This document shows positions 50,194 to 63,136 of a stretch of DNA of 64,000 bases, piece after piece. The stretch's first letter is position 1, and each line of letters begins with the position of its first letter. Source of the DNA: Actinomycetospora succinea (GTDB lineage Bacteria > Actinomycetota > Actinomycetes > Mycobacteriales > Pseudonocardiaceae). The translations under genes and the position numbers were made by a program. The notes under the pieces were generated by a model. It made no database searches. It had not been told where the DNA came from and saw only the letters and a list, made by a program, of their open reading frames with translations. The stretch lies in assembly GCF_004363095.1 (NCBI RefSeq), contig NZ_SNYO01000010.1, positions 124,001 to 188,000 on the forward strand, written 5' to 3'.

Positions 50194-50874
50194 CTAGCCG
50201 ATCAGATCCGTGATCTGTCCGTACACGGTCGGCCACGTGGCGTGCGCGGGATCGACGAGCGTGAAGTGGTCGCCGGGGACCTCGACGAGCACCGCGTCGT
50301 CGCCGGCGGCCCGCGCGGTCTCGGCGTAGGCGCGGCTGATCGCGAACGGCACCCGGTCGTCGTCGGGCGCGTGCACCGCCCGCACGGGCACGCCCAGCGG
50401 CAGCAGGGCCGCGGGGTCGGCGAGGGCGTAGCGCTCGGGCGCCTCGTCGGGTCCGGCCCCGACGAAAGCCCGCGCGGCGCCGTCGCCGATGCCCTCGCGC
50501 GCCGCGTCGGCGAGGGTCAGCACCCCGGCGAGCGACACCACGCCGCGCACCGGGACGCGCGACGCCACCCACGCCGCGAGGTGCCCGCCCGCCGAGTGGC
50601 CCACGACCACCGCCGGGGCGTCCACCGTGCGCAGGGCCGCCTCGACGTCCTCGAGCGTCGCCGGCCAGTCCCCCTGGCCCACGCGGCGGTACTCGACGTT
50701 GACCACCGCGTGCCCGCGCGCGTGCAGGTCCGTGGCCACCGGGGCGATGTGGTCGAGCGCCACCCGGGACCGCCAGAAGCCGCCGTGGAGCAGGACGACG
50801 GGTGGCCCGGCTCCCGGGTAGACGTCGACGAACTGGTGCTCGCCGGGGCCGTAGGAGATCCGCTCAGCGCACAC
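50194..50874 (-). CDS. alpha/beta hydrolase (kynurenine-formamidase-like), BMC operon
   Basis: A 226-residue alpha/beta hydrolase. The oxyanion region is VVLLHGGFWRSRVALD, the nucleophile elbow VVVGHSAGGHLAAWVA, the acid in VHAPDDDRVPFAI and the His in VPGDHFTLVDP, so the Ser-Asp-His triad is intact. It resembles the KynB-like esterase group with the HGGFW motif rather than meta-cleavage hydrolases. GTG at 50874 overlaps the RidA stop by 11 bases. In the operon it could hydrolyse a formamide or ester that precedes aminophenol formation, or a lactone; substrate unproven. Confidence 0.88.
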   Translation of the reverse strand: MCAERISYGPGEHQFVDVYPGAGPPVVLLHGGFWRSRVALDHIAPVATDLHARGHAVVNVEYRRVGQGDWPATLEDVEAALRTVDAPAVVVGHSAGGHLAAWVASRVPVRGVVSLAGVLTLADAAREGIGDGAARAFVGAGPDEAPERYALADPAALLPLGVPVRAVHAPDDDRVPFAISRAYAETARAAGDDAVLVEVPGDHFTLVDPAHATWPTVYGQITDLIG

Positions 50875-51310
50875 GCAGCATCGCGTCCAGCTCGACGGCG
50901 AACCCCTTGGGCAGCGCGCGCACCCCGATCGCGGTCCGCGCGTGCTCCCCGCGCTCGCCGAACACCGCCGCCAGCAGGTCCGACGCCCCGTCGACGACGC
51001 CGGGCTGGTCGACGAAGTCGTCGGTGCACGCGACGAAGCCGCGCAGCACGAGGACCTGGGCGACGCGGTCCAGCGAGCCCAGCGCGTCGCGGGTCTGCGC
51101 GAGCAGGTTGAGCGCGCAGGCCCGGGCCGCGGCGTAGCCATCGGCAACGGACAGGTCCGCGCCGAGCCGCCCGGTGTGCCCGTCGGCGCCCTGCCCGGCC
51201 AGGTGGAGCACGTCCCCGGCCATCGTCCAGCCACGGTAGTGCCCGGCGGGTCGCCGGAGCGGCGGGAGCTCCAGGCCCAGCTCGTCGAGCCGTTGTTCAG
51301 GAGTGCTCAC
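50864..51310 (-). CDS. RidA-family deaminase (2-aminomuconate deaminase-like)
   Basis: A 148-residue RidA/YjgF protein. Family features are GHYRGWTMAGDVLHLAGQG, YAAARACALNLLAQTRDALG and the C-terminal ARTAIGVRALPKGFAVELDA with the conserved Arg. RidA paralogs include 2-aminomuconate deaminase (AmnD), which turns 2-aminomuconate into 4-oxalocrotonate in 2-aminophenol catabolism. The adjacent two-subunit ring-cleavage dioxygenase, tautomerase and aldolase support that assignment; sequence alone would allow a housekeeping imine deaminase. GTG at 51310 overlaps the HAD gene stop. Confidence 0.82.
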   Translation of the reverse strand: MSTPEQRLDELGLELPPLRRPAGHYRGWTMAGDVLHLAGQGADGHTGRLGADLSVADGYAAARACALNLLAQTRDALGSLDRVAQVLVLRGFVACTDDFVDQPGVVDGASDLLAAVFGERGEHARTAIGVRALPKGFAVELDAMLRVR

Positions 51311-52014
51311 GGCGCCCACACCCGCCGGCGCCGCGGCTCCTCCGCCGGCAGCCCGAGCGCCCGGGACACGCGCGCGACCGAGCCGGCCGGGTCGGTGACG
51401 TCGAACAGCTCGGCGGCCATCCCCGCGCTGCGGGCGCCGTCGAGGTTCGCGGCGAGGTCGTCGACGAACAGGCAGCGCCGGGGGTCCTCGCCGAGCGCGT
51501 CCGCCGCCACCCGGAAGGCCCGCGGGTCGGGCTTGAGGACGCCGAGCTTCGCCGCCTCGAGCACGCCGTCGAACCGGGCCACCGCGGGGAACCGGGCCGG
51601 CCACTCGTCGCCGAACCAGTGCGCCATGTCGTTGGTGAACGCCACGACCCGCACCCGGCCCGCGAGCCGCGCGATCAGCCCGAGCACCTCCCCGCGCACG
51701 TAGGAGCAGTCCCGCCACAGCGCGCCGATGTCGAGATCGGGACGGCGCTCGACCAGGCGCGCCCAGTAGTCCCGCTCCTGGGACCGGCCCGCCTCGACCG
51801 ACCGGTAGTCCTCGTCGACGCCCGTCGGGCCGGCCGGGAAGCCGGGGACGTCGGTCGACTCGAACAGCGTCGGGATCACGACGCCGCCCATGTCGAGCAG
51901 CAGCGTGCCGCCCGCGGTCCGGGTCCGGCGCAGCGCCCGCCGCCGCCCGGCGCGCACGGCGTCCGGCGGCGTCGGCTCCGGCGGCCCCGGGGGACGCGGG
52001 GCACAGGAGGTCAC
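51307..52014 (-). CDS. HAD-family phosphatase, BMC operon
   Basis: A 235-residue HAD-IA hydrolase. Motif I is LLLDMGGVVIPT (YihX-type DxGG), motif II VVAFTNDMAHWFG, the Lys in AAKLGVLKPDPRAF and motif IV LFVDDLAANLDGA; the set looks active. The first 38 residues (VTSCAPRPPGPPEPTPPDAV and an Arg-rich part) are an unusual, disordered N-terminal extension. It follows the dikinase subunit with a 4-base overlap, so a phosphorylated aromatic made by the kinase is a plausible substrate. A cap domain of about 80 residues fits a small phosphate ester. Confidence 0.85.
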   Translation of the reverse strand: MTSCAPRPPGPPEPTPPDAVRAGRRRALRRTRTAGGTLLLDMGGVVIPTLFESTDVPGFPAGPTGVDEDYRSVEAGRSQERDYWARLVERRPDLDIGALWRDCSYVRGEVLGLIARLAGRVRVVAFTNDMAHWFGDEWPARFPAVARFDGVLEAAKLGVLKPDPRAFRVAADALGEDPRRCLFVDDLAANLDGARSAGMAAELFDVTDPAGSVARVSRALGLPAEEPRRRRVWAP

Positions 52015-53825
52015 AGGACCGTCACCACACCCGTGTTCCCGTCGACCCGCACCTGCTGGCCGGTGCGCAGGGTGGACACGGCGTTGCCGGTACCGACGAC
52101 CGCCGGCATGCCGTACTCCCGGCACACGATCGCGGTGTGGCTCATGATCCCGCCGACGTCGGAGACCGTGGCGGCGATCCGCGCGAACACCGGCGCCCAC
52201 GACGGCGAGGTCGCCGGGCAGACGAGCACGTCGCCGGGCTGGACCTCGGTGAGCTCGTTGGGGTGCGTGACCACCCGGACCGGGCCCTCGACGATGCCCG
52301 GCGAGCCCGCCGTGCCGCGCAGGACGCCCTCGTCGCCGTCGGCGCGCAGCCACTCGGAGACCGTCGACGTCGTGATCCCCCACAGCATCACCGTGAACGG
52401 CTCGTCGATCTGCGTCGGCGGCGGCCCGAGCGCCGGCGGCGGCTCCCACGCCCGCAGCGCCGTGTAGATCTCGCGGCGGCGGGCGATCGTCGGGCGGAGG
52501 TGCTCGGCGCCGCGCGGGCGCGAGCCGACCGACCACGCCGCGACGCAGTCGTAGATCGCCTCGGCGACCTCGTAGCGGCGCAGGAAGAACATGTCCTCCG
52601 GCTCGTCGATCTCGCCCATCGCGGCCAGCGCGCGGGAGAGCTCGTGCGACTTCGCCCAGAACGTCGCCCACATCCAGTGCTCGATGTAGAGCACGTGCTC
52701 CTCGATGAACGCGAACACCTGGCGGGCCAGCGCGACGGTCTCGTCGAACGTGGCGCGGTCGGCGTCGGAGAGCAGCTCGCGGTAGCCGGCGGTGATCCGG
52801 TCGCGCTCGGCGAGCACCTCGTCGGTCGGCCGGTCGATCGACTCGCCGTCCTCGAGCCGGCGCAGGTACTCGCGCACCGAGGTCAGCGGGATGTCCGGCT
52901 GGTCGGCCCAGGTCGGGTAGGTGTGGTACCCGCCGGGGTGCCCGGGGTCGGTGTTGATGAGGAACCACGGGTCGGCGGTGCGCTCCCAGTCGGCGACCCA
53001 CTCGGCGCCCGCCGCGTCGGCGCGCAGGCCCGCGAAGAGCGTCGCCGCGTCCTCGGTGCCCGAGAGCCGCTCGACCAGCCCGAGCCGCTGGGCCTCCTTG
53101 GCGAGGCGCTTGAGCTCGTCGTCGGGCCGGTAGAGCTCGACGCGCAGCCCGCCGACCATCCGCGAGATCGACTGGTCGGAGATGTCGGGGAACGCCTGGC
53201 GGCAGAGCCCGAAGAACGTCAGGTAGGCCGCGTAGCCGATGTTGAGCAGCTCGAAGTGGTACTGGTAGGTCTCGTACATCGTGAGCACGAGCCGGTCGAA
53301 GTCCCGGATCATCCGGAACCCCGCCGAGTGCCCGACGTGGTCGAACACCGTGCTCTCGGGCTCCAGGTCGGGCAGCGGCTCGAAGCGCAGCGACCGGATC
53401 TCGTCGAGCTTCGCGGTGACCTTGTCCTTCCACTCCGCGTAGATCGCGTCCCAGCGCTCGTAGTAGTGCCCGGCGCGGCGCCCGAACTCCTCGGCGCGGG
53501 CCCCGATGTGCTCGGCCGGAGCGGCCACGGGGGTCACGTAGAGCCGCCCGTTGACGATGCGCTGGTCGACGCCGAACGCGGGCGGCATCGCGAAGATCCG
53601 CGTGTTGAACGCGCCGAGCGCCTGCCACCAGCACTCGCACTGGATCTCGTCGTACGGGTGGAGCACGTCGGGGTGGTGCAGGCGGTCGGCGAACCAGAAC
53701 CGGCCCTCGTCCAGCTCGCGGCGCTCGGGCCCGAACAGGTGGTACCAGTCGTACATCGACTCCCAGCCCTCGGCGCCGGGCGGGGTCTCGATCTCGAACG
53801 GGCTCGGGAAACGGTCAGCCGGCAT
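52011..53825 (-). CDS. PEP-synthase-like swivelling-His / substrate subunit of a split dikinase
   Basis: A 604-residue protein. The C-terminal 80 residues are the phosphohistidine swivel domain: GSPGIVEGPVRVVTHPNE, QPGDVLVCPATSPSWAPVF, and the phospho-His in VGGIMSHTAIVCREYGMPAV. The large N-terminal part (about 500 residues) has no ATP-grasp motif and probably binds the acceptor substrate; GFRMIRDFDRLVLTMYET and WMWATFWAKSHELS are striking. Such split dikinases phosphorylate phenols (phenylphosphate synthase, 4-cresol kinase CreHI). The ATP-binding half is the next gene upstream, 11 bases overlapping. ATG at 53825. Confidence 0.85.
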   Translation of the reverse strand: MPADRFPSPFEIETPPGAEGWESMYDWYHLFGPERRELDEGRFWFADRLHHPDVLHPYDEIQCECWWQALGAFNTRIFAMPPAFGVDQRIVNGRLYVTPVAAPAEHIGARAEEFGRRAGHYYERWDAIYAEWKDKVTAKLDEIRSLRFEPLPDLEPESTVFDHVGHSAGFRMIRDFDRLVLTMYETYQYHFELLNIGYAAYLTFFGLCRQAFPDISDQSISRMVGGLRVELYRPDDELKRLAKEAQRLGLVERLSGTEDAATLFAGLRADAAGAEWVADWERTADPWFLINTDPGHPGGYHTYPTWADQPDIPLTSVREYLRRLEDGESIDRPTDEVLAERDRITAGYRELLSDADRATFDETVALARQVFAFIEEHVLYIEHWMWATFWAKSHELSRALAAMGEIDEPEDMFFLRRYEVAEAIYDCVAAWSVGSRPRGAEHLRPTIARRREIYTALRAWEPPPALGPPPTQIDEPFTVMLWGITTSTVSEWLRADGDEGVLRGTAGSPGIVEGPVRVVTHPNELTEVQPGDVLVCPATSPSWAPVFARIAATVSDVGGIMSHTAIVCREYGMPAVVGTGNAVSTLRTGQQVRVDGNTGVVTVL

Positions 53826-54957
53826 GGTCGGGCGTCCCTTCGGGCGTCGGGCTGGTCGCGGCCGCGCCGCGGGTGAGCGTCGCGAGCACCGCCGACAGCG
53901 CCGACTGGGCGCCGCTGGTCGCCGCCCGCGGGGCGCGGGTGCTCCAGACCGTCTCCGGGCGGGTCTGGAGGAGGTGGACGCGGACGGGGCCGCCGGGCTC
54001 GGCGACCGCGAACTCCCCGTCCTGCGGCACCCCGGCGTCACGCTCGACGCGCCGCGCCAGCTCGAGGATCTCGGCGAGCTCGGCATCGTCGAGGCACGGC
54101 TGCTCGCGGCGCTCGGCCGGGACGTCGGTCTCGTGGGTGCCGGGGTGCTCGGGGTCGCGGACGAGGCAGCGCTCCTTCCGCGCCACCTCGCGGCGCACGA
54201 CCTCGCCGCTGATCTTGTCGATGACGAACCGGTCCGGGGTCACGGTGCCGGAGACCAGCGGCTCCCCCAGGCCCCAGACCGCCTCGCAGACCACGGTCGA
54301 GCGGTCGCCGTTCGCGGGGTTCAGGGTCATGAACACCCCGGCGGCGCGCGCCGGCACCATCTCCTGCACGACCACCGCCATCGCGCCGGCCGACCCGGCG
54401 CCGGCTCCATGGTCGAGCTCCCCTATCGGCGTGCTCCCCTGATCGCTCCGTCTCCCGGCGTGCTCCCGGTACGACACCGCGCGCGCCGTGTAGAGGCTCG
54501 CCCAGCACCGGCACACGGCGTCGGCGACCGCGTCGCGGCCCCGCAGCTCGAGGAACGTGTCGTGCTCGCCGGCGAACGAGGCGCCCGCGGCGTCCTCGCC
54601 CACCGCCGACGAACGCACCGCCACCCGCGCGATCCCGCCGGCGAGCCCGTCGTAGGCGGCGCGGACGGCGTCGAGCACCGGGCCCGCGGTGGCCGCGCGC
54701 AGCAGCCGCGCCCGGGCCTCGGACGCCGCGCGCTCGACCTGGTCGATCGGGGCGTCCGGCGAGAGTGCGCGCAGGGGCGCCTCGACGTCGCCCGTGTCGG
54801 TGAGCGCGGCCCGGAACGCGTCGGTGGTGACGACGAACCCCGCCGGCACCCGCGCGCCCAGGGCCACGAGCCGGTGCAGCCCGGCGCCCTTGCCGCCGAC
54901 GGCGTCGACGTCTCCCGCCGCGGGGTCGGCGAGGCCGAGGATCCAGGGTCCGCTCAC
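53815..54957 (-). CDS. PEP-synthase-like ATP-binding subunit of a split dikinase
   Basis: A 380-residue PPDK N-terminal (ATP-grasp) domain: DAVGGKGAGLHRLVALGARVPAGFVVTTDAF (in pieces: GGKGAGLHRL, VPAGFVVTTDAF), ARVAVRSSAVGEDAAGASFAGEHDTFLEL (cut: AVRSSAVGEDAAGASFAG), VVVQEMVPARAAGVFMTLNP, and the closing HLLQTRPETVWS. It should transfer the beta-phosphate of ATP to the phospho-His of the swivel subunit. After LLQTRPETVW there is a 41-residue tail with a predicted amphipathic helix, AQSALSAVLATLTRG, which may be a BMC encapsulation peptide. GTG at 54957 overlaps the vertex-protein gene stop. Confidence 0.87.
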   Translation of the reverse strand: MSGPWILGLADPAAGDVDAVGGKGAGLHRLVALGARVPAGFVVTTDAFRAALTDTGDVEAPLRALSPDAPIDQVERAASEARARLLRAATAGPVLDAVRAAYDGLAGGIARVAVRSSAVGEDAAGASFAGEHDTFLELRGRDAVADAVCRCWASLYTARAVSYREHAGRRSDQGSTPIGELDHGAGAGSAGAMAVVVQEMVPARAAGVFMTLNPANGDRSTVVCEAVWGLGEPLVSGTVTPDRFVIDKISGEVVRREVARKERCLVRDPEHPGTHETDVPAERREQPCLDDAELAEILELARRVERDAGVPQDGEFAVAEPGGPVRVHLLQTRPETVWSTRAPRAATSGAQSALSAVLATLTRGAAATSPTPEGTPDHAG

Positions 54958-55199
54958 GGCGCATCCCACCCCGCGACGAGGGCCACGACGGCCGCGTCGA
55001 CGCAGGCGCGCCCGGTCACCGCCGCCGCGGCCTCGTCGGTGGCGACGAGCACGGTCGTGCCGGTCCCGGCGTCGAGCAGGTCGACGGCCACCCGCTGCGC
55101 CCCGGAGTCCTGGTCGCGCACCATCACCATGCGCGTCCCGCCGAGCCCCTCGACCTCGCGCTCGGACCACACGCGCCCGACGACCTCACCCAGGATCAC
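54954..55199 (-). CDS. BMC vertex protein (EutN/CcmL, BMC-P)
   Basis: An 81-residue EutN/CcmL pentamer. The fold's marks are ILGEVVGRVWSEREVEGLGG, RVAVDLLDAGTGTTVLVATD and DAAVVALVAGWDAP. Pentamers close the twelve corners of a microcompartment shell. GTG at 55199 overlaps the shell-protein stop as GTGA. It is the only vertex protein in the window, which is enough for one shell type. Confidence 0.93.
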   Translation of the reverse strand: MILGEVVGRVWSEREVEGLGGTRMVMVRDQDSGAQRVAVDLLDAGTGTTVLVATDEAAAAVTGRACVDAAVVALVAGWDAP

Positions 55200-55525
55200 T
55201 GCGACGTCCCCGACTCGATCGCCCTGGTCAGCCGGTCCGCGCTCCCGTTCTCCAGCAGCCCGACCGACACCCCGTGCGGCTTCGGGTACACCTGCGCGGC
55301 CCGCAGCTCGCCGTACTGCTCGACGGCCGCCGACCCCGCGTTGATCGCCTGGCGGACCGCCGCGAGCGACCCGCGCACGGCCGCGGCCAGGTAGCCGCTC
55401 GAGACCCGGTCGACCGTCACGGTCTCGACGTCGGCGGTCTTCATCATCGCCTCGATGCCCGCTGCGAGCGCCACGACGCCGCGCGTCTCGAGGATGCCGA
55501 TCGCTCCCGCACCCCGCTCGGCCAT
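55196..55525 (-). CDS. BMC shell hexamer protein (BMC-H), long form
   Basis: A 109-residue single BMC domain: GAIGILETRGVVALAAGIEA, AMMKTADVETVTVDRVSSGYLA and VRGSLAAVRQAINAGSAAVE. The pore-lining turn reads SSGYLA. A 25-residue C-terminal extension after AAQVYPKPHGV (VGLLENGSADRLTRAIE) is longer than in minimal hexamers and could face the shell interior. ATG at 55525 lies two bases past the stop of the other shell gene. Forms hexagonal tiles of the shell facets. Confidence 0.93.
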   Translation of the reverse strand: MAERGAGAIGILETRGVVALAAGIEAMMKTADVETVTVDRVSSGYLAAAVRGSLAAVRQAINAGSAAVEQYGELRAAQVYPKPHGVSVGLLENGSADRLTRAIESGTSQ

Positions 55526-55527
55526 GA

Positions 55528-55818
55528 TCAGCTCCCCACCATCGCCATGTCGCCCGCCAGCGCCTGGACCGGCACGCACGGGCTCGCGAACACGATCGAC
55601 TTCACGGCGCGCCCGGACACCGCCCGCGCGACCTCCTCGCCGACCTCCACGGCCTCCTCGACCGTCGCGAGGTCGCCGGTCACGGCCACCGCGACGAGCC
55701 CGCCGCCGAGGCGCACCGCCCCGCGGACCTCCACCTCGGTCGCCTTGACCATGGCGTCGACCGCGTCGAACACCGGCACGAACCCCTCGGCCTCGATGAA
55801 CCCCACTGCCCGTGCCAT
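55528..55818 (-). CDS. BMC shell hexamer protein (BMC-H), short form
   Basis: A 96-residue BMC domain: RAVGFIEAEGFVPVFDAVDA, MVKATEVEVRGAVRLGGGLVA, VTGDLATVEEAVEVGEEVA. The pore turn RLGGGLVA is glycine-rich and differs from SSGYLA in the partner hexamer, so the two pores may pass different molecules. The end DMAMVGS is short. ATG at 55818 overlaps the dioxygenase stop by one base. With the long form it would tile the facets; no BMC-T trimer gene was found nearby. Confidence 0.93.
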   Translation of the reverse strand: MARAVGFIEAEGFVPVFDAVDAMVKATEVEVRGAVRLGGGLVAVAVTGDLATVEEAVEVGEEVARAVSGRAVKSIVFASPCVPVQALAGDMAMVGS

Positions 55819-56645
55819 CAGGTCTCCCTCGTGTTGGTGTGCTCGCCCCACCAGACGACCGCTGCTCCCGTGCCCCACACCGGCCCGTACGCCAGGACCT
55901 CGCCCGGCCGGTCCACCGCGCCGCTCCCGTCCAGGAACGCGAACGCCCGGAACTGGCTGTCGGCCTGCGCCGCCACCGCGAACTCCTCGCGCATCGCCAG
56001 CACCGCGGAGCGGTCGCCGGCGCGGACCGCGTCGAGGACCTTGCGGTTCCAGCGGTCGTGCTCGGGTTCGACGCGGTCCTCGGACGGGCGGATCCAGCGC
56101 GCCGTCAGCCCGGACGACAGCCCGCTGACGGCGACGACGCCGAGCCGGCGACCGAGCTGATCGGCCGCCCGGACCCCCGCCGCGGCCACGGCCGCCATCG
56201 CCGCGGGGTCGGCGTAGAGGTTGCACGACACCATCGCCCAGCGACCTTCATCGTGGGGATCGAGGAGCTTCGACGCCACGACCGTGCCCGTGTCCACCGG
56301 GAAGCCGTCGTACCGCGTGCGGCGGGCCTGCATCCCCGCGGCGTCGATGGCGTCGGCCCAGGCGTGGGCGAGCTCGGTGTCGACGGCCAGGTCGTGGTCG
56401 AGGTGGCCGTAGTCGTAGGCGTACCAGTTCTCGTCGGTGCGCCGGCCGCGCAGCCGGTCGTCGCACTGCACCTGGTGGCCGAGCACCGTGAACCACTGCG
56501 TCGAGAGCAGCAGGACGGTGTCGACGCCCGCGGCGCGCAGGCGGTCGCCGACGGTGCGCGTCGCGGCGGCCAGCTCGGCCCAGCTGTCGGCGGGGTCGCC
56601 GGCGAGGAGGTGGGGCATGGCCGGGACGAGCGCCGCGGGGATCAC
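55818..56645 (-). CDS. LigB-type extradiol dioxygenase, non-catalytic alpha subunit
   Basis: A 275-residue class III extradiol dioxygenase-fold protein. The first metal-region His is in PAMPHLLAG, but the place of the second iron His reads LLLSTQWFTV, with no His, so this is probably the structural alpha subunit, as AmnA is in 2-aminophenol 1,6-dioxygenase. The C-terminal AYGPVWGTGAAVVWWGEHTN parallels the end of the catalytic subunit. GTG at 56645 overlaps the catalytic subunit's stop (56642-56644) in a 4-base GTGA, matching the rest of this operon; 56657 is an alternative. Confidence 0.87.
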   Translation of the reverse strand: MIPAALVPAMPHLLAGDPADSWAELAAATRTVGDRLRAAGVDTVLLLSTQWFTVLGHQVQCDDRLRGRRTDENWYAYDYGHLDHDLAVDTELAHAWADAIDAAGMQARRTRYDGFPVDTGTVVASKLLDPHDEGRWAMVSCNLYADPAAMAAVAAAGVRAADQLGRRLGVVAVSGLSSGLTARWIRPSEDRVEPEHDRWNRKVLDAVRAGDRSAVLAMREEFAVAAQADSQFRAFAFLDGSGAVDRPGEVLAYGPVWGTGAAVVWWGEHTNTRET

Positions 56646-57628
56646 GTCGGGACCCACTCGACGACCGCGTTCCCCGTGGCGATCACCGTGCCGTAGGCGA
56701 GGACGTCACCGGCGATCGCGGGCCAGCCCATCGCCGCCATCAGCCAGGTCAGGCTGCCGGCCTTGGTCTCCGACGACGTCGCCTCGATGTGCGCGGGCAC
56801 GGCCTCCTTCAGCCGCGACGTCGGGCCCTCGCGGATCGTCCGCAGCAGCTCCATGTCGCCCGCGTACTGGGCGTGGGTGAAGGGGCGCTCGACGCCCATG
56901 TCCTCGGGCAGGTCGGGCTCGGCGTCCCAGTGCAGGTGGGACAGCGAATTCGACGCGAGCAGCACCGCACGGCGACCCGTCTTCTCGATCGCCTTCCGCG
57001 TCGCCTCGCCCAGCGTCTCCATCTCGGCGAGCGAGGCGTCGGAGTAGAAGTAGGGGTTGTTGTTGGCCGACAGCGACACGACGGGCAGGTCCCAGTCGGG
57101 GTTGGCCAGGTGCAGCGCCCCGATCGTCGCGTAGTCCACGCGCACGCCGTCCTCGCGCATCGCGCTCGTGACCAGGCCCGCGCGGGCGCCCTCCTCGACG
57201 ATCGCCTCGGCGAGGTCGACGTCGGTGCGGAAGTCGTAGTGGTACCGGAACAGGTGCGGGAAGATCGGCTCGACGGAGACGCCGCGCGGGTTCGGCACGC
57301 AGTTCACGTGGTGGCCCACCATCGTGATCCAGTGCGGCGCGTGCACCACGAGCACGTCGGGCGCGTGGGCGCGCAGCCGCCGGCGCAGCTCCTCGTAGCC
57401 CCAGCGCAGCACCTCCCAGCCGCCGGTCGAGCGCGGCTCGTTCTGCGGCGGGTTCTCGGCGTAGACGAGGTGGGGCGGGTGCGGCGCGAGGTAGCCGGCG
57501 ACGATGCCGCCGCGGCCCCCGGACCCCGACGTCGTGCTCGGCGCGGCGGCCGGCGCGGGCTCGGTGCGGGCCGCGCGCCGCGACGCCGACCGGCCGCTCC
57601 CGGCGGTGGCGTGGAACACACGGGCCAT
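56642..57628 (-). CDS. LigB-type extradiol dioxygenase, catalytic beta subunit
   Basis: A 328-residue class III extradiol dioxygenase. Iron His residues lie in APHPPHLVY and [14 protein letters not shown], and the Glu in [14 protein letters not shown], as in LigB, HpcB and AmnB. Together with the alpha subunit it should cleave 2-aminophenol (1,6-) or a catechol with O2. The first 40 residues, [20 protein letters not shown] then Pro/Ala/Ser/Gly-rich, precede the domain and resemble an N-terminal cargo-targeting extension. ATG at 57628 gives this extension; it heads the ten-gene operon. The divergent IclR gene starts 93 bases away. Confidence 0.88.
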
Positions 57629-57671
57629 GGCGGCGACGCTAGGGAGACGCCGACCCGTCACCCAGGTCGCC

Positions 57672-57688
57672 GTCCAACGGTGCTGGAC
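57672..57688. promoter_or_regulatory. candidate operator in the BMC/IclR divergent promoter
   Basis: GTCCA at 57672-57676 and TGGAC at 57684-57688 form an inverted repeat with a 7-base spacer, in the middle of the 92-base region between the BMC operon and the iclR gene. Position suits an IclR operator controlling both; arms are only five bases. Confidence 0.35.
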
Positions 57689-57720
57689 ACCGCCGTTCGG
57701 GACCGCCCAGACTCGAACGG

Positions 57721-58458
57721 GTGACGGTGGCGGCGGTGAGCAAGTCCGCCGTCCTGCTGCGCGCCTTCGGCCCCACCACGGACGTGCTGTCCACCCGCGC
57801 CCTGGCCGCGCGCACCGGCATCCCGCGCAGCACCGTCCATGTGCTCGCCGGCACCCTGGCCGCCGAGGGCCTCCTCGAGACCGTGCCCGGACGCGGCTGG
57901 CGGCTCGGCCCGCTGCTCGTCGGCCTGGCCGGCCAGATCATCGAGCGCACCGGGCTCGTCGCCGCCGTGGAGGGCGGGCTCGGCGGGCTGCGGCGCGCCG
58001 CCGGGCAGGAGGTCCACGTCGCCCAGCTCGTCGGCGGCTGGACCGTCTACCTGCACCGCGAGGCCGGCCCGGTCCGCGCGCCGATGGACAACCGCGTCGG
58101 GCTCCGGGCGCCCGCCTGGCGCGGGGGCTGCGGCAAGGCGGCGCTGTCGCGGCTGGCCCGCGAGGAGGTCGAAGACCGCGTCGAGCGCCTGTGCCGCGAC
58201 GAGGGCCTCACCCCGCCCGACCGCGCCGCCCTGCACGAGGAGCTCGGGGCCGCGCGCCGCGCCGGGTACGTGGTGTCGTCGACCTTCCAGGCCGGGCGGA
58301 CGTCGGTGGCGGCGCCCGTGGTCGACGCCGACGGGCGGCCGGTCGGCGGGCTCTCGGTCGCCGGCCCGTCGTCGCTGTTCACCCGCGCCGTGCTGGCCCG
58401 CTGCGCGCAGGACGTCGTCGAGGCCGCGGCCCGGGCGGGGCGGCAACTGGTCTGCTGA
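57721..58458 (+). CDS. IclR-family transcriptional regulator of the BMC locus
   Basis: A 245-residue IclR protein: winged helix [20 protein letters not shown] and [16 protein letters not shown], then the effector-binding GAF-like domain [19 protein letters not shown] and [21 protein letters not shown]. IclR proteins regulate aromatic and glyoxylate catabolism, often as activators. It lies between the two divergent halves of the BMC pathway, so it is the obvious controller of both. GTG at 57721. An IclR-like operator (58482-58497) sits just downstream. Confidence 0.93.
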
Positions 58459-58481
58459 CGGGCGCACGCGTCCCGGCTGGT

Positions 58482-58497
58482 GGAACGCTGCGGTTCC
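58482..58497. promoter_or_regulatory. candidate IclR operator upstream of acetaldehyde dehydrogenase
   Basis: GGAAC at 58482-58486 and GTTCC at 58493-58497, 6-base spacer. It extends to TGGAAC at its left. The E. coli IclR site is TGGAAATNATTTCCA, which shares the TGGAA/TTCC ends. It lies 33 bases before the acetaldehyde dehydrogenase start and downstream of iclR, suiting regulation of the aldehyde branch. Confidence 0.45.
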
Positions 58498-58529
58498 CCG
58501 GTGTCGGTGAGCGGTGTCACTCTGCGGGC

Positions 58530-59471
58530 ATGAGTGCGCCTGCAAAGGTCCCGGCCGCCATCGTCGGTCCGGGCAACATCGGCACCGACCTGCTGGCCAA
58601 GCTCGCGCGCAGCGCGCGGGTCGAGGTCACGGCGATGGTCGGCGTGGTCGAGTCGGACGGGCTGGAGCGGGCGCGCGCGGCGGGCGTCGCGGCGTCGGCG
58701 GAGGGCGTCGACTGGCTGCTGCGCCAGGACCCGCTCCCGAGGATCGTCTTCGAGGCGACGTCGGCGAAGGCGCACCTCGCGAACGCGCCGCGCTACTCCG
58801 ACGCGGGGATCCGGGCGATCGACCTGACGCCCGCGCACCTCGGGCCGATGGTGTGCCCGGCGGTGAACATGCCCGACCACCTCGACGCCCCGAACATCAA
58901 CATGATCACGTGCGGCGGGCAGGCGACCATCCCGATCGTCGCCGCGGTCTCGCGGGTCGCCCCGGTGGCCTACGCGGAGATCGTCGCCTCGACGGCGTCG
59001 CGCTCGGCCGGGCCGGGCACGCGCGCCAACATCGACGAGTTCACGCAGACGACGGCACGGGCGGTCGAGGAGGTCGGCGGCGCCGAGCGCGGCAAGGCGA
59101 TCATCATCCTGAACCCCGTCGAGCCGCCGATGATCATGCGGGACACGGTGTTCTGCTCGCTGCCCGAGGACGCCGACCACGACGCCGTCGCCGCGTCGAT
59201 CCACGACATGGTCACCCGCGTCCAGCAGTACGTGCCGGGCTACACGCTGCGCGCCGAGCCGCAGTTCGACCCGCCGACCGAGAAGTGGGGCGGACGAGGT
59301 CGCGTGGCCGTGTTCCTCGAGGTCAAGGGCAACGGCGACTACCTGCCCGAGTACGCCGGCAACCTCGACATCATGACCGCCGCCGCCGCGGAGGTCGGCG
59401 AGCTGGTCGCCGCGGACCTCGGAGACGCCGCGAAGCGGAGCTCGACCATCGATGCGGAGGTCCCGGCATGA
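58530..59471 (+). CDS. acylating acetaldehyde dehydrogenase (MhpF/BphJ type)
   Basis: A 313-residue NAD-dependent enzyme that makes acetyl-CoA from acetaldehyde and CoA. The Rossmann start is [17 protein letters not shown] and the catalytic Cys is in [12 protein letters not shown], with [15 protein letters not shown] in the dimer region. It is the classical partner of the pyruvate aldolase, channelling acetaldehyde through an internal tunnel. ATG at 58530; the stop overlaps the aldolase start as ATGA. Encapsulation of both in the shell would limit loss of acetaldehyde. Confidence 0.96.
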
Positions 59472-60502
59472 GCAGGCCCGAGATCCGCCACGACGTCCGC
59501 CTCACCGACACCACCCTGCGCGACGGCAGCCACGCCCAGGCGCACCAGTTCACCGAGGAGCAGGTCCGGGACACCGTGCGCGCGCTCGACCGCGCGGGTG
59601 TCGAGGTCATCGAGGTGACCCACGGCGACGGCCTCGGCGGCTCGAGCTTCAACTACGGCTTCTCGCACACCGACGAGCTGACGCTGATCGCCGCCGCCCG
59701 CGAGGAGGCCAAGCAGGCGAAGATCGCGGTGCTCCTGGTGCCCGGCATCGGGACCGTCGAGGACCTGCGCCGCGCCCGCGACGCCGGCGCCGACGTCGTG
59801 CGCGTCGCGACCCACTGCACCGAGGCCGACGTGTCGCCCCAGCACTTCGGGGTGGCCCGCGAGCTGGGCATGGAGACGGTCGGGTTCCTCATGATGGCCC
59901 ACCGCACGCCGCCGGAGGACCTCGCGAAGCAGGCCCGGATCATGGTCGACGCCGGCTGCCAGTGCCCGTACGTCACCGACTCCGCGGGCGCGCTGCTCAT
60001 GCACGAGGCGCGGGCCCGGTTCGAGGCGCTGCTCGCCGAGGTCGGCGACGAGGCGTGGGTCGGCTACCACGGCCACCAGAACCTCTCGATGGGCGTCGCG
60101 AACTCGGTGATCGCCGCGGAGCTGGGCGTCAAGGAGATCGACGGCTCGCTGTGCGCCCTCGGCGCGGGGTCGGGCAACTCGCCGACCGAGGTGCTCGCCG
60201 CCGTGTTCGACCGCATGGGCATCGAGACCGGCGTCGACGTCACCGCGCTGCTCGACGCCGCCGAGGACGTCGTCCGCCCGTACCTGCACCGCTGGCCGAA
60301 GATGGACCGCAACGCCATCACCCAGGGCTGGGCGGGGGTCTACTCCAGCTTCCTGCTGCACGCCGAGCACGCGGGCGAGCGCTACAAGGTCCCGGTGCCC
60401 GACATCCTGCGCCGCTGCGGCGAGCTGGGGCTCGTCGGCGGGCAGGAGGACATGATCATCGACATCGCGCTGGAGCTGGCGCGCGAGCGCGAGCAGGGCT
60501 GA
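59468..60502 (+). CDS. 4-hydroxy-2-oxovalerate aldolase (MhpE/BphI type)
   Basis: A 344-residue DRE-TIM metallolyase of the HOA aldolase group. Signature regions are [17 protein letters not shown] with the metal Asp, [15 protein letters not shown], and [16 protein letters not shown] with the metal His pair. It cleaves 4-hydroxy-2-oxovalerate to pyruvate and acetaldehyde. ATG at 59468 overlaps the dehydrogenase stop as ATGA, typical of this two-enzyme complex. The C-terminal region [20 protein letters not shown] is diagnostic of the family. Confidence 0.96.
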
Positions 60503-60506
60503 CGCC

Positions 60507-60917
60507 GTGCCGATCCTCGAGCTCCACCTCGTCGACGGCGACCACTCCCCCGCCGAGCACGCCGCGCTGCTCCAGCGCCTCAGCGCGGTCTACGCCGCGG
60601 TGCTCGAGTCGCCGGTGGAGCGCGTCCGGGCCTACCTGACCCTGCACGCGCGGGAGCACTGGGCGGTGGGCGGATCGACACACGCCGACCCGGCGCCGTA
60701 CTTCACCGCGATCGTCCTCGAGGGCCGGCCGGTCGAGCAGCGCCACCGGCTGCTCGCCGAAGTGACGGACCTGCTCGTCGAGATCCTCGGCGTCGAGCGG
60801 TCGCGGGTGCGCGGGCGGATCATCCAGGTGCCGCCGGACGACTGGGCCATCGGCGGCGTCCCGGCCGCGGCCGCCCGGCGCGACGAGATCGCGGCGCGCG
60901 CGGGCACCGCCCGGTAG
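60507..60917 (+). CDS. 4-oxalocrotonate-tautomerase-like enzyme (fused pair)
   Basis: A 136-residue tautomerase. After removal of the initiator, Pro is the N-terminus (PILELHLVDG), the catalytic general base in this superfamily. The length is twice that of 4-oxalocrotonate tautomerase monomers, as in cis-CaaD-like proteins; the second half, GRIIQVPPDDWAIGGVP, looks like a diverged repeat. In this pathway it would convert the enol tautomer of 4-oxalocrotonate after RidA deamination. It follows the aldolase stop by four bases, GTG start. Confidence 0.85.
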   Translation: MPILELHLVDGDHSPAEHAALLQRLSAVYAAVLESPVERVRAYLTLHAREHWAVGGSTHADPAPYFTAIVLEGRPVEQRHRLLAEVTDLLVEILGVERSRVRGRIIQVPPDDWAIGGVPAAAARRDEIAARAGTAR

Positions 60918-60923
60918 GCCGCC

Positions 60924-61898
60924 GTGCGCGTCAGCACCTCGGACCCGGACCGGGCCCGGGCGGAGTGCGCGGAGATCTACTTCCCGCACCGGCTGACGAT
61001 GCTGCACGACCCCGCCGAGTTCTCGATGTCGCTCTCGGCCGTCGACCTCGGGCCGGTCGCGGCGGGAGTGCTGTCGTACGCCGGCGAGGTGGTGATCGAG
61101 ACCGGGGAGCTGGCCACCGGCTACGAGGTGAACATCGCGCTGGACGGCGTCCTGCGCACCCGCAGCGGGCGCGCGGACGTGTGCTCCACCGCGGCGACCG
61201 CGGCCGTCTACCGGCCCGACGGCACCGCCCGCCTGCACGGGTGGGCCGAGGGCGGGCGGCTGTTCGGGCTGAAGATCGAGCGCGGCGCGCTGGAGGACCA
61301 GCTCACGTCCCTGCTCGACCGGCCGGTGCGCGGTGCCGTGGCGCTGGCGCCGACGATCGACCTCGAGTCCGACGACGGCCGGCGGTGGTGGTCGCTGGTG
61401 CGGACGCTCGCCGACCTCGCCGCCGACCCGCGCGGGCTCGCCGCCGACCCGCGGGTGATGCGCCCGCTGGTCGAGGCCGTCGTCGCGGGCCTGCTGCACA
61501 CCGTGGACCACCCCTACCGCGACGCCCTCGCCGCGCCCGCCGCGGCGGTGGGGCCGCGGTCGGTGCGCCGCGCCGTGGCCGCGGTCGTCGAGCGGCCCGA
61601 GCACCCCTGGACGGTCTCCTCGCTCGCCGAGGTCGCCGGCGTCAGCGCCCGCGGCCTGCGCGACGGCATGGCCCGCCACCACGGCGTCTCCCCCATGGCG
61701 CTCGTGCGCGACGTCCGCCTGCGCCGCGCCCGCGACGACCTCGCGGCGGGTCGCGGCGCGGTGGCCGAGGTGGCCATGCGCTGGGGCTTCACCCACCTGG
61801 GCCGCTTCGCCCGGTCCTACCGCGAGGCCTTCGGCGAGCCCCCGTCGCGCACTGCCGGAACCGGCGCTCGGCCTACCGCGCGCGGGCTCGACCGGTGA
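60924..61898 (+). CDS. AraC-family transcriptional regulator
   Basis: A 324-residue regulator with an N-terminal cupin-like AraC-binding domain (EFSMSLSAVDLGPVAAGVLS, EVNIALDGVLRTRSG) and a C-terminal two-HTH AraC domain (WTVSSLAEVAGVSARGLRDG, LRRARDDLAAGR, VAEVAMRWGFTHLGRFARSY). Such proteins sense aromatic effectors and activate upper or lower pathway genes. GTG at 60924, six bases after the tautomerase stop, so it is probably co-transcribed. It lies between the aldehyde branch and the P450. Confidence 0.92.
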   Translation: MRVSTSDPDRARAECAEIYFPHRLTMLHDPAEFSMSLSAVDLGPVAAGVLSYAGEVVIETGELATGYEVNIALDGVLRTRSGRADVCSTAATAAVYRPDGTARLHGWAEGGRLFGLKIERGALEDQLTSLLDRPVRGAVALAPTIDLESDDGRRWWSLVRTLADLAADPRGLAADPRVMRPLVEAVVAGLLHTVDHPYRDALAAPAAAVGPRSVRRAVAAVVERPEHPWTVSSLAEVAGVSARGLRDGMARHHGVSPMALVRDVRLRRARDDLAAGRGAVAEVAMRWGFTHLGRFARSYREAFGEPPSRTAGTGARPTARGLDR

Positions 61899-61924
61899 CC
61901 TGGACCACACCTAGCGTCGGTGCG

Positions 61925-63136
61925 GTGACCCTCGACTTCAACCCCATGGTCAGCCCGCACCGGGAGGACCCGCACCTGTTCTACCGCGAGGCCCGCGCCC
62001 ACTCGCCGATGATCAACCCCGTGCTCGGCGCCTACATGGTGACCCGGTACGACGACCTGACCACGGTCATCGACGACCCGGACACCTACTCGTCGGCCGT
62101 CGCGGTCCCGAAGATCTACTGGAACCCGCCCGAGGTCACCGAGGTGCTCACCGCCGGGAACGTCCCCGAGACCAACGCCGTGGTCAATGAGGACGAGCCC
62201 GCCCACCGCCCGATCCGGCGCGTGTTCGACGCCGGCTTCACCGGGGCGCGGGTCCGCGCGATGCTGCCGACGATGCGGGCGACCGCCGAGTCGTTGATCG
62301 ACGGCTTTCTGGGCCGGCGGGCCGACCTGGTGGCCGACTACGCGATCCCGTTCGTCCAGTCGGTGATCAACGCGATCATCGGGTTCCCGCCGGAGGACGG
62401 CGCGCGGATCCAGCAGTGGACCGACGACGTCAACATGCTCTGGAACCTGCTGGCCCCGCTGGAGGACCGCATCGCCTCGGCCCACCGGATGGCCGACTAC
62501 ACCCGCTACCTCCAGGCCTTGATCGACGACCGGCGCGCCCACCGCCGCGAGGATCTGATCTCCGATCTCGTGCACGGCGCGAACGGCTTCCCCGGGCTCG
62601 ACGACGACTACGTCATCAACGTCGTGCGCGGCGCGGCCCGCGTGGCCGGCTTCGACACGACCCGCGACGCGATCACCGCGACGATGCTCGCGATCCTGCA
62701 GCACCCGGACGTCCACGAGCGCGTGCTGGCCGACCCGGCCAAGGCGATCCCGAAGGTCACCGAGGAGGTCCTGCGCCGCGACGCCCCGCACCGCGGCCTG
62801 TTCCGCATCACGACGAAGGACACGAGCCTCGGCGGCACCGACCTGCCCGCCGGCACGATGGTGCTGGTGCTCTTCGGCTCGGGGAACCGCGACGAGACGA
62901 AGTTCCCCGAGCCCGACGTCGTCGACATCGACCGCGCCAACGTCCGCGACCACCTCGCCTTCGGCCGCGGCCTGCACGTCTGCCCCGGTGCCCCGATGGC
63001 GCGCGCCGAGATCCGCGTGGCGCTCGAGACGCTGGTCCGCCGCCTGCCCGCGATGCGCCTCGCCGACGACTACGCCCCGACCTACATCGCGAGCTACTTC
63101 TTCCGCGGCCTGGAGACCCTCGACGTGACGTGGTGA
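61925..63136 (+). CDS. cytochrome P450
   Basis: A 403-residue soluble P450. The I-helix oxygen-binding motif is RVAGFDTTRDAI, the K-helix ExxR is in EEVLRRDAP, and the haem loop is FGRGLHVCPGAPMAR with the axial Cys. No ferredoxin or reductase gene is adjacent, so it needs shared electron carriers. It could hydroxylate an alkylphenol or its phosphate, in analogy to CreJ of the 4-cresol pathway, but the substrate is unproven. GTG at 61925, 26 bases after the AraC stop. Confidence 0.95.
   Translation: MTLDFNPMVSPHREDPHLFYREARAHSPMINPVLGAYMVTRYDDLTTVIDDPDTYSSAVAVPKIYWNPPEVTEVLTAGNVPETNAVVNEDEPAHRPIRRVFDAGFTGARVRAMLPTMRATAESLIDGFLGRRADLVADYAIPFVQSVINAIIGFPPEDGARIQQWTDDVNMLWNLLAPLEDRIASAHRMADYTRYLQALIDDRRAHRREDLISDLVHGANGFPGLDDDYVINVVRGAARVAGFDTTRDAITATMLAILQHPDVHERVLADPAKAIPKVTEEVLRRDAPHRGLFRITTKDTSLGGTDLPAGTMVLVLFGSGNRDETKFPEPDVVDIDRANVRDHLAFGRGLHVCPGAPMARAEIRVALETLVRRLPAMRLADDYAPTYIASYFFRGLETLDVTW

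Follow-up and report, generated by a model that had tools for sequence, protein, structure and literature searches.

The window analysed here, a stretch of 64,000 nt from the soil bacterium Actinomycetospora succinea (positions 124001-188000 of contig NZ_SNYO01000010.1, or C10, in a genome of 6.47 Mb and 23 contigs), carries a bacterial microcompartment (BMC) locus of the ARO type, in which the shell genes share an operon with a ring-cleaving dioxygenase, a two-component dikinase and a HAD hydrolase. Ten genes run on the minus strand from 57628 down to 50194, each overlapping its neighbour or lying within 2 bp of it. The order 3' of the EutN pentamer gene is ATP-grasp, swivel component, HAD, Rid and alpha/beta hydrolase, with overlapping stop and start codons. 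From its 5' end, the operon contains the following features.

57611-57628, minus strand: N-terminal tag of the dioxygenase beta subunit (pattern M[SAG]x[VI]F)
56642-57628, minus strand: LigB-type extradiol dioxygenase beta subunit (ARO AmnB), 328 residues, ATG at 57628; PF02900, E 6.6e-24; 7txy_B, E 1.3e-155
55818-56645, minus strand: LigB-type dioxygenase alpha subunit; 60% identity to the Micromonospora rosaria alpha subunit; GTGA overlap with the beta stop
55528-55818, minus strand: BMC-H shell hexamer 1, H_lipstickred type by elimination; PF00936, E 1.6e-16; 75% identity to M. rosaria
55196-55525, minus strand: BMC-H shell hexamer 2, with PKPH as in H_cerulean; PF00936, E 2.2e-18
54954-55199, minus strand: EutN/CcmL-type pentamer (BMC-P); PF03319, E 6.9e-15
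53815-54957, minus strand: dikinase ATP-grasp component (PPDK_N; PpsB/CreI/HpeI-like); PF01326, E 6.2e-84
52011-53825, minus strand: dikinase swivel and substrate-binding component (PpsA/CreH/HpeH-like), 604 residues; PF00391, E 2e-24; SDVGGIMSH
51307-52014, minus strand: HAD-IA hydrolase; PF00702, E 2.1e-9; TIGR01509 over its cut-off; GTGA overlap with the dikinase stop
51310-51324, minus strand: C-terminal R-V-W-A-P tag of the HAD (R[VI][FW] scan)
50864-51310, minus strand: Rid-family protein of the PF14588 type, not the AmnD type; PF14588/PF01042
50194-50874, minus strand: small alpha/beta hydrolase, BD-FAE/esterase-like; PF20434; carboxylesterase 9x6a, E 4.8e-22

It is near certain that this is an ARO BMC, a type already published, because the shell genes are recognised by Pfam and, among solved structures, the beta subunit comes closest to an ARO enzyme, the 2-aminophenol 1,6-dioxygenase beta subunit 7txy (E 1.3e-155). 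The ARO type was named by Sutter in 2021 (PMC8217296) and characterised in M. rosaria by Doron in 2023 (PMC10470539), where the PKPH motif is assigned to H_cerulean. Two of the three shell proteins fall into PF00936 and one into PF03319, and the two hexamers are the only PF00936 matches at E <= 0.001 in the whole genome. The alpha subunit is marginal by Pfam (25.9 bits against a PF02900 cut-off of 26.3) and clear by BLAST. The first-pass annotation had proposed a BMC for aromatic ring cleavage, a variant of the described ARO type, with two hexamers at 55196-55818, a EutN/CcmL pentamer at 54954-55199 and a two-subunit LigB dioxygenase; families and coordinates agree with ours, and the assignment holds on comparison with the M. 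rosaria locus. Shared with that locus are one BMC-P and two BMC-H proteins near the ARO shell proteins, a LigB dioxygenase with an N-terminal extension, its alpha and beta genes adjoining the shell genes, an IclR regulator and meta-pathway genes, with 60-76% identity in shell and dioxygenase. Features of M. rosaria absent here are HyuA/HyuB, the AmnD-type Rid protein (cluster 14) and the ARO aldehyde dehydrogenase (AldDh), while the dikinase, the HAD, a different Rid protein and a tautomerase set the window locus apart. Even lacking the ARO AldDh, the locus is kept in the type because shell and signature enzyme define it. The nearest named relatives of the dioxygenase are in Actinomycetospora species (90-95% identity), and the enzyme is carried by 9 of 18 genomes of the genus, its own included, and by 19 of 390 in the family.

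The PPDK_N, PEP-utilizers, HAD and alpha/beta hydrolase genes were overlooked in the first-pass annotation. The best solved relative of the ATP-grasp component is 9goj, named phosphoenolpyruvate (PEP) synthase (387 aa, E 9.2e-53). The swivel protein ends in a PEP-utilizer mobile domain, and its SDVGGIMSH fits the phosphohistidine motif T/SXXGGXXXH, with Met at -2 and Ser before His. Two-component dikinases are described for phenol (PpsAB), 4-methylphenol (CreHI) and hydroxyphenylethanones (HpeHI), with Met given at this place for these phenol kinases and Ser for CreH and PpsA (PMC12167813, PMC9618137). The motif with both residues is present in all 19 ARO swivel sequences that entered our tree, a midpoint-rooted tree with 8 reference rows from which two loci, one cut (L029) and one broken (L122), were left out. 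An AlphaFold2 model of the swivel protein, of modest quality (predicted local distance difference test, pLDDT, 65), matches rifampin phosphotransferase 5fbt by Foldseek (E 1.8e-13, 503 columns, 18% identity), and HpeH is likewise described as related in fold to that enzyme (PMC12167813, PMC9618137). Sequence evidence thus makes a strong case that 53815-54957 and 52011-53825 belong to the PpsAB/CreHI/HpeHI-type dikinase family, and the kinase probably puts a phosphate on its substrate.

Set beside PpsAB, CreHI and HpeHI by description, the ARO dikinases are alike in their split ATP-grasp and swivel/substrate chains, phosphohistidine motif and rifampin-phosphotransferase fold, but differ in sitting inside BMC operons and in forming a group of their own, apart from the 8 reference rows (support 96/81). 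The closest comparison made was with the swivel protein of an hpe-like cluster on a plasmid of Rhodococcus sp. JS3073 (L087; 47% identity to the window type), a row placed apart from the two other hpe-like ones in the tree. The clusters differ as well: HpeD of hpe is NagD-like, whereas ARO loci have a HAD-IA hydrolase, and the hpe- and cre-type clusters have a carboxylase or P450, neither of which is conserved beside the ARO dikinase. Our literature searches turned up no BMC for which a dikinase is reported, and in the main text of PMC10470539 the words dikinase, kinase and phosphatase do not occur, though its supplements may draw or list the genes.

Among solved structures the HAD comes nearest to epoxide hydrolase 2 (E 1.7e-8), followed by the phosphatase YihX (E 2.5e-6); the HAD model has a pLDDT of 83. 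These matches suggest a hydrolase, probably a phosphatase, and phosphatase is the likelier reading because the gene adjoins that of a kinase. In five other dikinase-type loci (L010, L018, L023, L123, L124) a histidine-phosphatase-family gene lies 3' of the HAD gene, or, in L010, 3' of the Rid gene.

To see how widely this module is distributed, 37 distinct actinobacterial ARO loci were compared: the window, 31 from a scan of GTDB contigs and five (L122, L123, L124, L126, L128) from searches of 390 and 396 genomes. The scan took the best 80 of 239 relatives, among which L003-L032 and L075 are ARO and the other 49, non-BMC homologues, served as controls. Gene-content counts cover the sequence retrieved around each locus, at most some 10 kb per flank, and the dikinase was also sought genome-wide in 16 records. 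Of the 37 loci, 21 have the swivel gene (counting L029, at a contig end, and L122, whose frames are broken) and 13 have HyuA; no locus has both and three have neither. Two of these three (L006, L024) end within the shell genes and the third (L025, Amycolatopsis) has a metallo-beta-lactamase-type gene and an FMO. A HAD gene of the window type stands beside the dikinase in 20 of the 21 (in L122 as a fragment in a broken frame; the L029 contig ends first) and in none of the 13 HyuA loci. Dikinase-bearing loci occur in at least three families (f1, f21, f32).

On the dioxygenase tree the dikinase and HyuA labels need three changes, at least two of them forced, and since only two or three replacements are involved the mutual exclusion is weaker than 21 against 13 suggests. 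Dikinase loci are found in Pseudonocardiaceae lineages at the unresolved base and in a mixed subclade (94/97) with three HyuA loci. Swivel and dioxygenase-beta distances are correlated (r 0.96 over 17 loci, 0.92 over 11 with a single Actinomycetospora; 0 of 2000 permutations), and the same comparison of dioxygenase alpha with beta gives r 0.95 and 0.92. The search of ten Micromonosporaceae ARO genomes gave no relative of the dikinase at E <= 1e-30; in four further genomes, of the HyuA or metallo-beta-lactamase type, relatives of 42-47% identity and cre- or hpe-like kind lie elsewhere in the genome. On the simplest reading of these sequence comparisons the kinase type would be older and the HyuAB type, which includes M. 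rosaria, derived.

Both the dioxygenase and the HAD carry short terminal motifs. The beta subunit has been described as having an N-terminal extension of 30-35 residues, in ARO strains only, that is not predicted to be helical and is invisible in the crystal (PMC10470539). We find that this extension starts with M-[S/A/G]-x-[V/I]-F-[R/H/Q/K], followed by a linker that varies in length and sequence. All 35 ARO loci with a visible start have the motif (34 by pattern, L004 with MGRVF by inspection; in L008 and L026 the contig cuts off the start), against none of 47 homologues from outside the ARO loci. Its third residue is Arg in 24 loci, Lys in 7 and another residue in 4. At the other end of the other protein, R[VI][FW] occurs in the last 20 residues of 14 of 15 ARO HADs and in none of 619 other called proteins of at least 60 aa from the same loci; four further ARO HADs have RVF (three) or RVY (one), and a second HAD of L126, outside its ARO operon, has no tag. 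The last five HAD residues lie outside the modelled domain (pLDDT 44, against mostly >80 in the core). A basic helix at the HAD N terminus is also conserved, but is less clear as a tag than the C-terminal motif.

Because the C-terminal tag resembles that of dioxygenase beta, we would place the HAD in the lumen, where it is likely to be encapsulated together with the dioxygenase, and the RVF-type tag may be a shell-loading signal that the two have in common. Like the encapsulation peptides of other BMCs, it is a short terminal peptide joined to a cargo enzyme by a variable linker; unlike them, it is not predicted to be helical (per Doron), consists of few residues, and sits at the N terminus of one enzyme and the C terminus of another. 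The term RVF does not occur in the main text of PMC10470539, and the tags, looked for only there and in one literature search on encapsulation peptides, were not found; nor was the kinase/HAD module found in the literature text searched, whose supplements may hold the genes. Matches from a permissive N-terminal scan were not accepted as tags in EutN (4 of 30, from GRVW in the pentamer core), an M24 peptidase (1 of 2) or one other protein (of 249). The helical C terminus of the ATP-grasp component was likewise ruled out as an encapsulation peptide, as non-ARO homologues also have a hydrophobic C-terminal segment. Alone among the Rid proteins of its kind, that of L126 starts MSARRVFATP.

These features can be assembled into a proposal in which a kinase-bearing ARO BMC cleaves an o-aminophenol- or catechol-type substrate after masking, delivering and unmasking it, for which we would put the chances slightly short of even. 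In the cytosol, the two-component dikinase would use ATP to phosphorylate the phenolic hydroxyl, trapping the compound and shielding an oxidisable, toxic phenol; intracellular trapping of phenols is the role supposed for kinases of the HpeHI type (PMC12167813, PMC9618137). The anionic aryl phosphate would then pass into the shell. There, in the lumen, the HAD, anchored through the R-V-F/W tag at its C terminus, would take the phosphate off beside the LigB dioxygenase, itself anchored through its N-terminal M-S/A-R-V-F tag. The dioxygenase would open the ring, a chemistry that Doron et al. showed for the M. rosaria homologue, and Rid, tautomerase, aldolase and acetaldehyde dehydrogenase, with hydratase and decarboxylase encoded in satellite loci, would complete the meta pathway. 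H_lipstickred has been modelled with a wide pore that is positive on its concave side (PMC10470539). Should the concave side face outward, as in other shells, this pore would suit an anionic aryl phosphate.

Masking and unmasking is favoured because no gene for modifying an aryl phosphate is conserved beside the ARO dikinase among the loci compared, unlike beside the other dikinases examined, which adjoin carboxylase-like, P450, Rieske or phenol hydroxylase genes (the carboxylase parts read by eye). The wider account, in which kinase-type ARO BMCs as a group use phosphate-caged delivery and an RVF-tagged, co-loaded phosphatase, and in which this ancestral pathway was replaced by HyuAB at least twice, is offered more tentatively.

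Several points weigh against the proposal. Dikinase and HAD are both missing from the best-studied ARO BMC, that of M. rosaria, which means that not every ARO BMC depends on masking, and vertical inheritance in one lineage could by itself produce the distance correlation with no common function needed. An enzyme encoded elsewhere could act on the aryl phosphate. In the ARO operons of L029 and L126 the swivel gene lies directly 3' of EutN with no ATP-grasp gene between; HpeH is described as moving phosphate between phenols by itself (PMC12167813). The tags are three to six residues long and lack any known binding site on the shell; Arg stands at the third position of the beta tag in 24 of 35 loci only, a strict R[VI][FW] scan picks out 15 of 31 beta subunits, and the exceptional HAD without a strict match is that of L026. 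The HAD itself weakly matches haloacid dehalogenase 2no4 (E 2.6e-4; TIGR01428 far under its cut-off), and the second Asp of its motif I is replaced by Gly (the window protein has DMGG, and all 12 aligned ARO HADs have D-[MVIL]-G-G). That Asp is usual in most HAD phosphatases, and its replacement is also seen in dehalogenases. Despite the Gly we call the HAD a probable phosphatase, because its nearest solved relatives include active phosphatases.

Among the alternatives, the one that survives best makes the phosphate a handle for the upper pathway: a remote P450 or Rieske enzyme would modify the aryl phosphate made by the dikinase, and the HAD would free catechol or 2-aminophenol for the compartment. 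Dikinases in neighbouring groups do pair with P450 and Rieske-type enzymes (cre-like, hpe-like and Rieske-linked clusters), a second dikinase with a Rieske oxygenase adjoins the ARO operon of L126, the window has a P450-like gene at 61925-63136, and past the window end the same genome has a Rieske gene at about 13 kb and extradiol-like genes at about 21-23 kb (extradiol by resemblance to those of L126). However, the P450-like gene is found in only 3 of 32 loci (cluster 36) and the ARO dikinase has no oxygenase conserved alongside it; the tag, too, points to a HAD in the lumen, though this stays compatible with a handle if the product enters as a phosphate. On balance we regard this alternative as rather unlikely.

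Less probable still is an upstream compound of the cyclic carbamate or acylated 2-aminophenol class, for instance a grass benzoxazolinone, opened by hydrolases beside the ARO loci, an idea that is itself compatible with masking and unmasking. Candidate openers are HyuAB, metallo-beta-lactamases, amidohydrolases and esterases, and in the window the alpha/beta hydrolase. HyuA is present in 13 of 37 loci, metallo-beta-lactamase-type genes in L012, L024, L025 and L028, amidohydrolases in L022, L024 and L123 with a homologue in L122, and esterase-like genes in L022, L126 and Actinomycetospora; in Fusarium the metallo-beta-lactamase MBL1 is described as needed for benzoxazolinone breakdown, presumably via 2-aminophenol (PMC4726666). 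These hydrolase families are common, however, BxdA, CbaA and MBL1 enter the comparison by description only, and the idea alone leaves the kinase unexplained. A plain 2-aminophenol ARO BMC, the view of the first-pass annotation and of the literature, beside which dikinase and HAD genes of an unrelated pathway landed by chance, is very improbable: unrelated genes can gather in operons, and the M. rosaria type does without dikinase and HAD, its dioxygenase and AldDh working in vitro (PMC10470539), but the gene overlaps, the single clade, the co-inheritance with the dioxygenase, the spread over at least three families and the common tag all speak against it.

The first-pass choice of 2-aminophenol as the probable substrate is not supported as it stands, since the Rid protein is not of the AmnD type, a tautomerase is present, and the homologous M. 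rosaria dioxygenase is described as cleaving 2-aminophenol and catechol alike (PMC10470539). Its RidA deaminase is indeed a Rid-family protein (PF14588/PF01042), but not of the AmnD type: comparison with the solved 2-aminomuconate deaminase 6izh gives nothing at E <= 0.01, whereas the Rid protein of ARO locus L022 matches that enzyme at E 7e-55. In the first 32 loci, 13 have the window Rid type and 13 the AmnD type, none both and six neither (some being cut); among later loci, L122, L126 and L128 have the window type, L124 the AmnD type and L123 neither. Because the two types never co-occur in the ARO loci compared, the window type may do the work of AmnD. A catechol subtype of ARO is recognised by Doron et al. 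by a tautomerase in place of the deaminase (PMC10470539). In the window a tautomerase is present, longer than the classical enzyme, and so is a Rid protein.

The 2-aminophenol pathway as first drawn also needs a semialdehyde dehydrogenase, and the genome has none of the ARO type. By clustering, the window's locus contains no homologue of the ARO AldDh or of the hydratase/decarboxylase family, and the whole-genome matches lie elsewhere. The best AldDh match in the genome is 45% identical, and the region around it (C2:884-898 kb) was discarded as a pathway locus, having no meta-pathway set. Six named Actinomycetospora genomes reach 45-50% (the 50% match being in the A. cinnamomea locus), against at least 60% in nine other ARO genomes, M. 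rosaria's (the query) included, and 53% in the L012 draft. The AldDh is said to occur in all ARO loci (PMC10470539), a published statement that, on these identities, needs an exception. Satellite loci hold the hydratase/decarboxylase-family genes; one such pair, accompanied by one IclR gene and one small tautomerase-like gene, lies 17-20 kb beyond the end of the window.

Divergent from the operon, between 57721 and 60917, four plus-strand genes run from IclR through acetaldehyde dehydrogenase and aldolase to tautomerase, with two candidate regulatory sites.

57672-57688, no strand: palindrome GTCCAACGGTGCTGGAC (GTCC..GGAC) between the divergent genes, 5-base arms; candidate IclR operator
57721-58458, plus strand: IclR-family regulator; PF01614, PF09339
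58482-58497: palindrome GGAAC..GTTCC before the acetaldehyde dehydrogenase gene; candidate IclR site
58530-59471, plus strand: acylating acetaldehyde dehydrogenase; PF09290
59468-60502, plus strand: 4-hydroxy-2-oxovalerate (HOA) aldolase; PF00682, PF07836
60507-60917, plus strand: tautomerase, about twice the length of classical 4-oxalocrotonate tautomerase (4-OT); PF01361; TIGR00013 58.5 bits, cut-off 56.9

Pfam bears out the earlier description of divergent operons around one IclR gene (PF01614/PF09339 at 57721-58458), with an acylating acetaldehyde dehydrogenase (PF09290), an HOA aldolase (PF00682 and PF07836) and a tautomerase (PF01361). TIGR00013 is the 2-hydroxymuconate tautomerase family; against the equivalog models the protein scores below their cut-offs. 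Stronger inverted repeats than the palindrome at 57672-57688 exist in the same stretch, and similar palindromes lie about 60-65 nt from the dioxygenase gene start in several other ARO loci, with none in some. An AraC-type regulator and the P450-like gene follow 3' of the tautomerase (60924-63136), each in just 3 of 32 loci.

Related dikinase clusters were met elsewhere. On the window's own contig, C10, a second pair of dikinase genes (PF00391, PF01326), distantly related and on a long branch, lies about 3 kb beyond the window at 191061-194395 (L094 3061-6395), and a satellite at about 200-212 kb of C10 (L094, L095) holds a Rieske oxygenase, two extradiol-like genes, a hydratase/decarboxylase-family pair, a small tautomerase-like gene and several of IclR-like type. 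Adjoining the ARO operon of L126 (G443:C534, 3257-10431) are a second dikinase pair, a Rieske oxygenase, a histidine phosphatase-like gene and two catechol-2,3-dioxygenase-like genes, possibly an aerobic route via aryl phosphates. In Pseudonocardia asaccharolytica (L130, 7704-15711) both dikinase components are fused into a protein of 972 aa, adjoined by metallo-beta-lactamase-like and phenol-hydroxylase-family genes. The hpe-like cluster of the Rhodococcus sp. JS3073 plasmid (NZ_CP113952.1 312000-334000), unannotated, contains a dikinase pair, biotin-carboxylase-like parts, a HAD-IIA, and ligase-like and amidohydrolase-like genes. Further cre-like clusters are in L131 and L132 and hpe-like ones in L133 and L134; in these reference clusters the P450 and HD-domain protein of L131 and the HADs of L087 and L133 were identified by Pfam, and carboxylase and ferredoxin parts by eye. 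Two metagenome bins with non-BMC AmnB homologues (L046, L078), titled Klebsiella pneumoniae and Streptomyces griseus, carry names that look doubtful.

The locus is thus of the known ARO kind, in a form with a kinase/HAD module and RVF tags. According to the main text of PMC10470539, which studied a species of the HyuAB type, no upper-pathway enzyme other than HyuB could be identified in the ARO locus, and the precursor of 2-aminophenol, the inducer and the entry of enzymes into the shell are left unanswered. In loci that carry it, the dikinase/HAD module is a concrete and assayable candidate for the upper or entry step, and the RVF tag is a testable loading signal of a few residues that could be used to engineer ARO shells. 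We rate the caged-substrate mechanism itself at slightly less than an even chance; should the HAD prove to be a phosphatase of the lumen, the microcompartment would import its substrate in protected form and remove the protection within.

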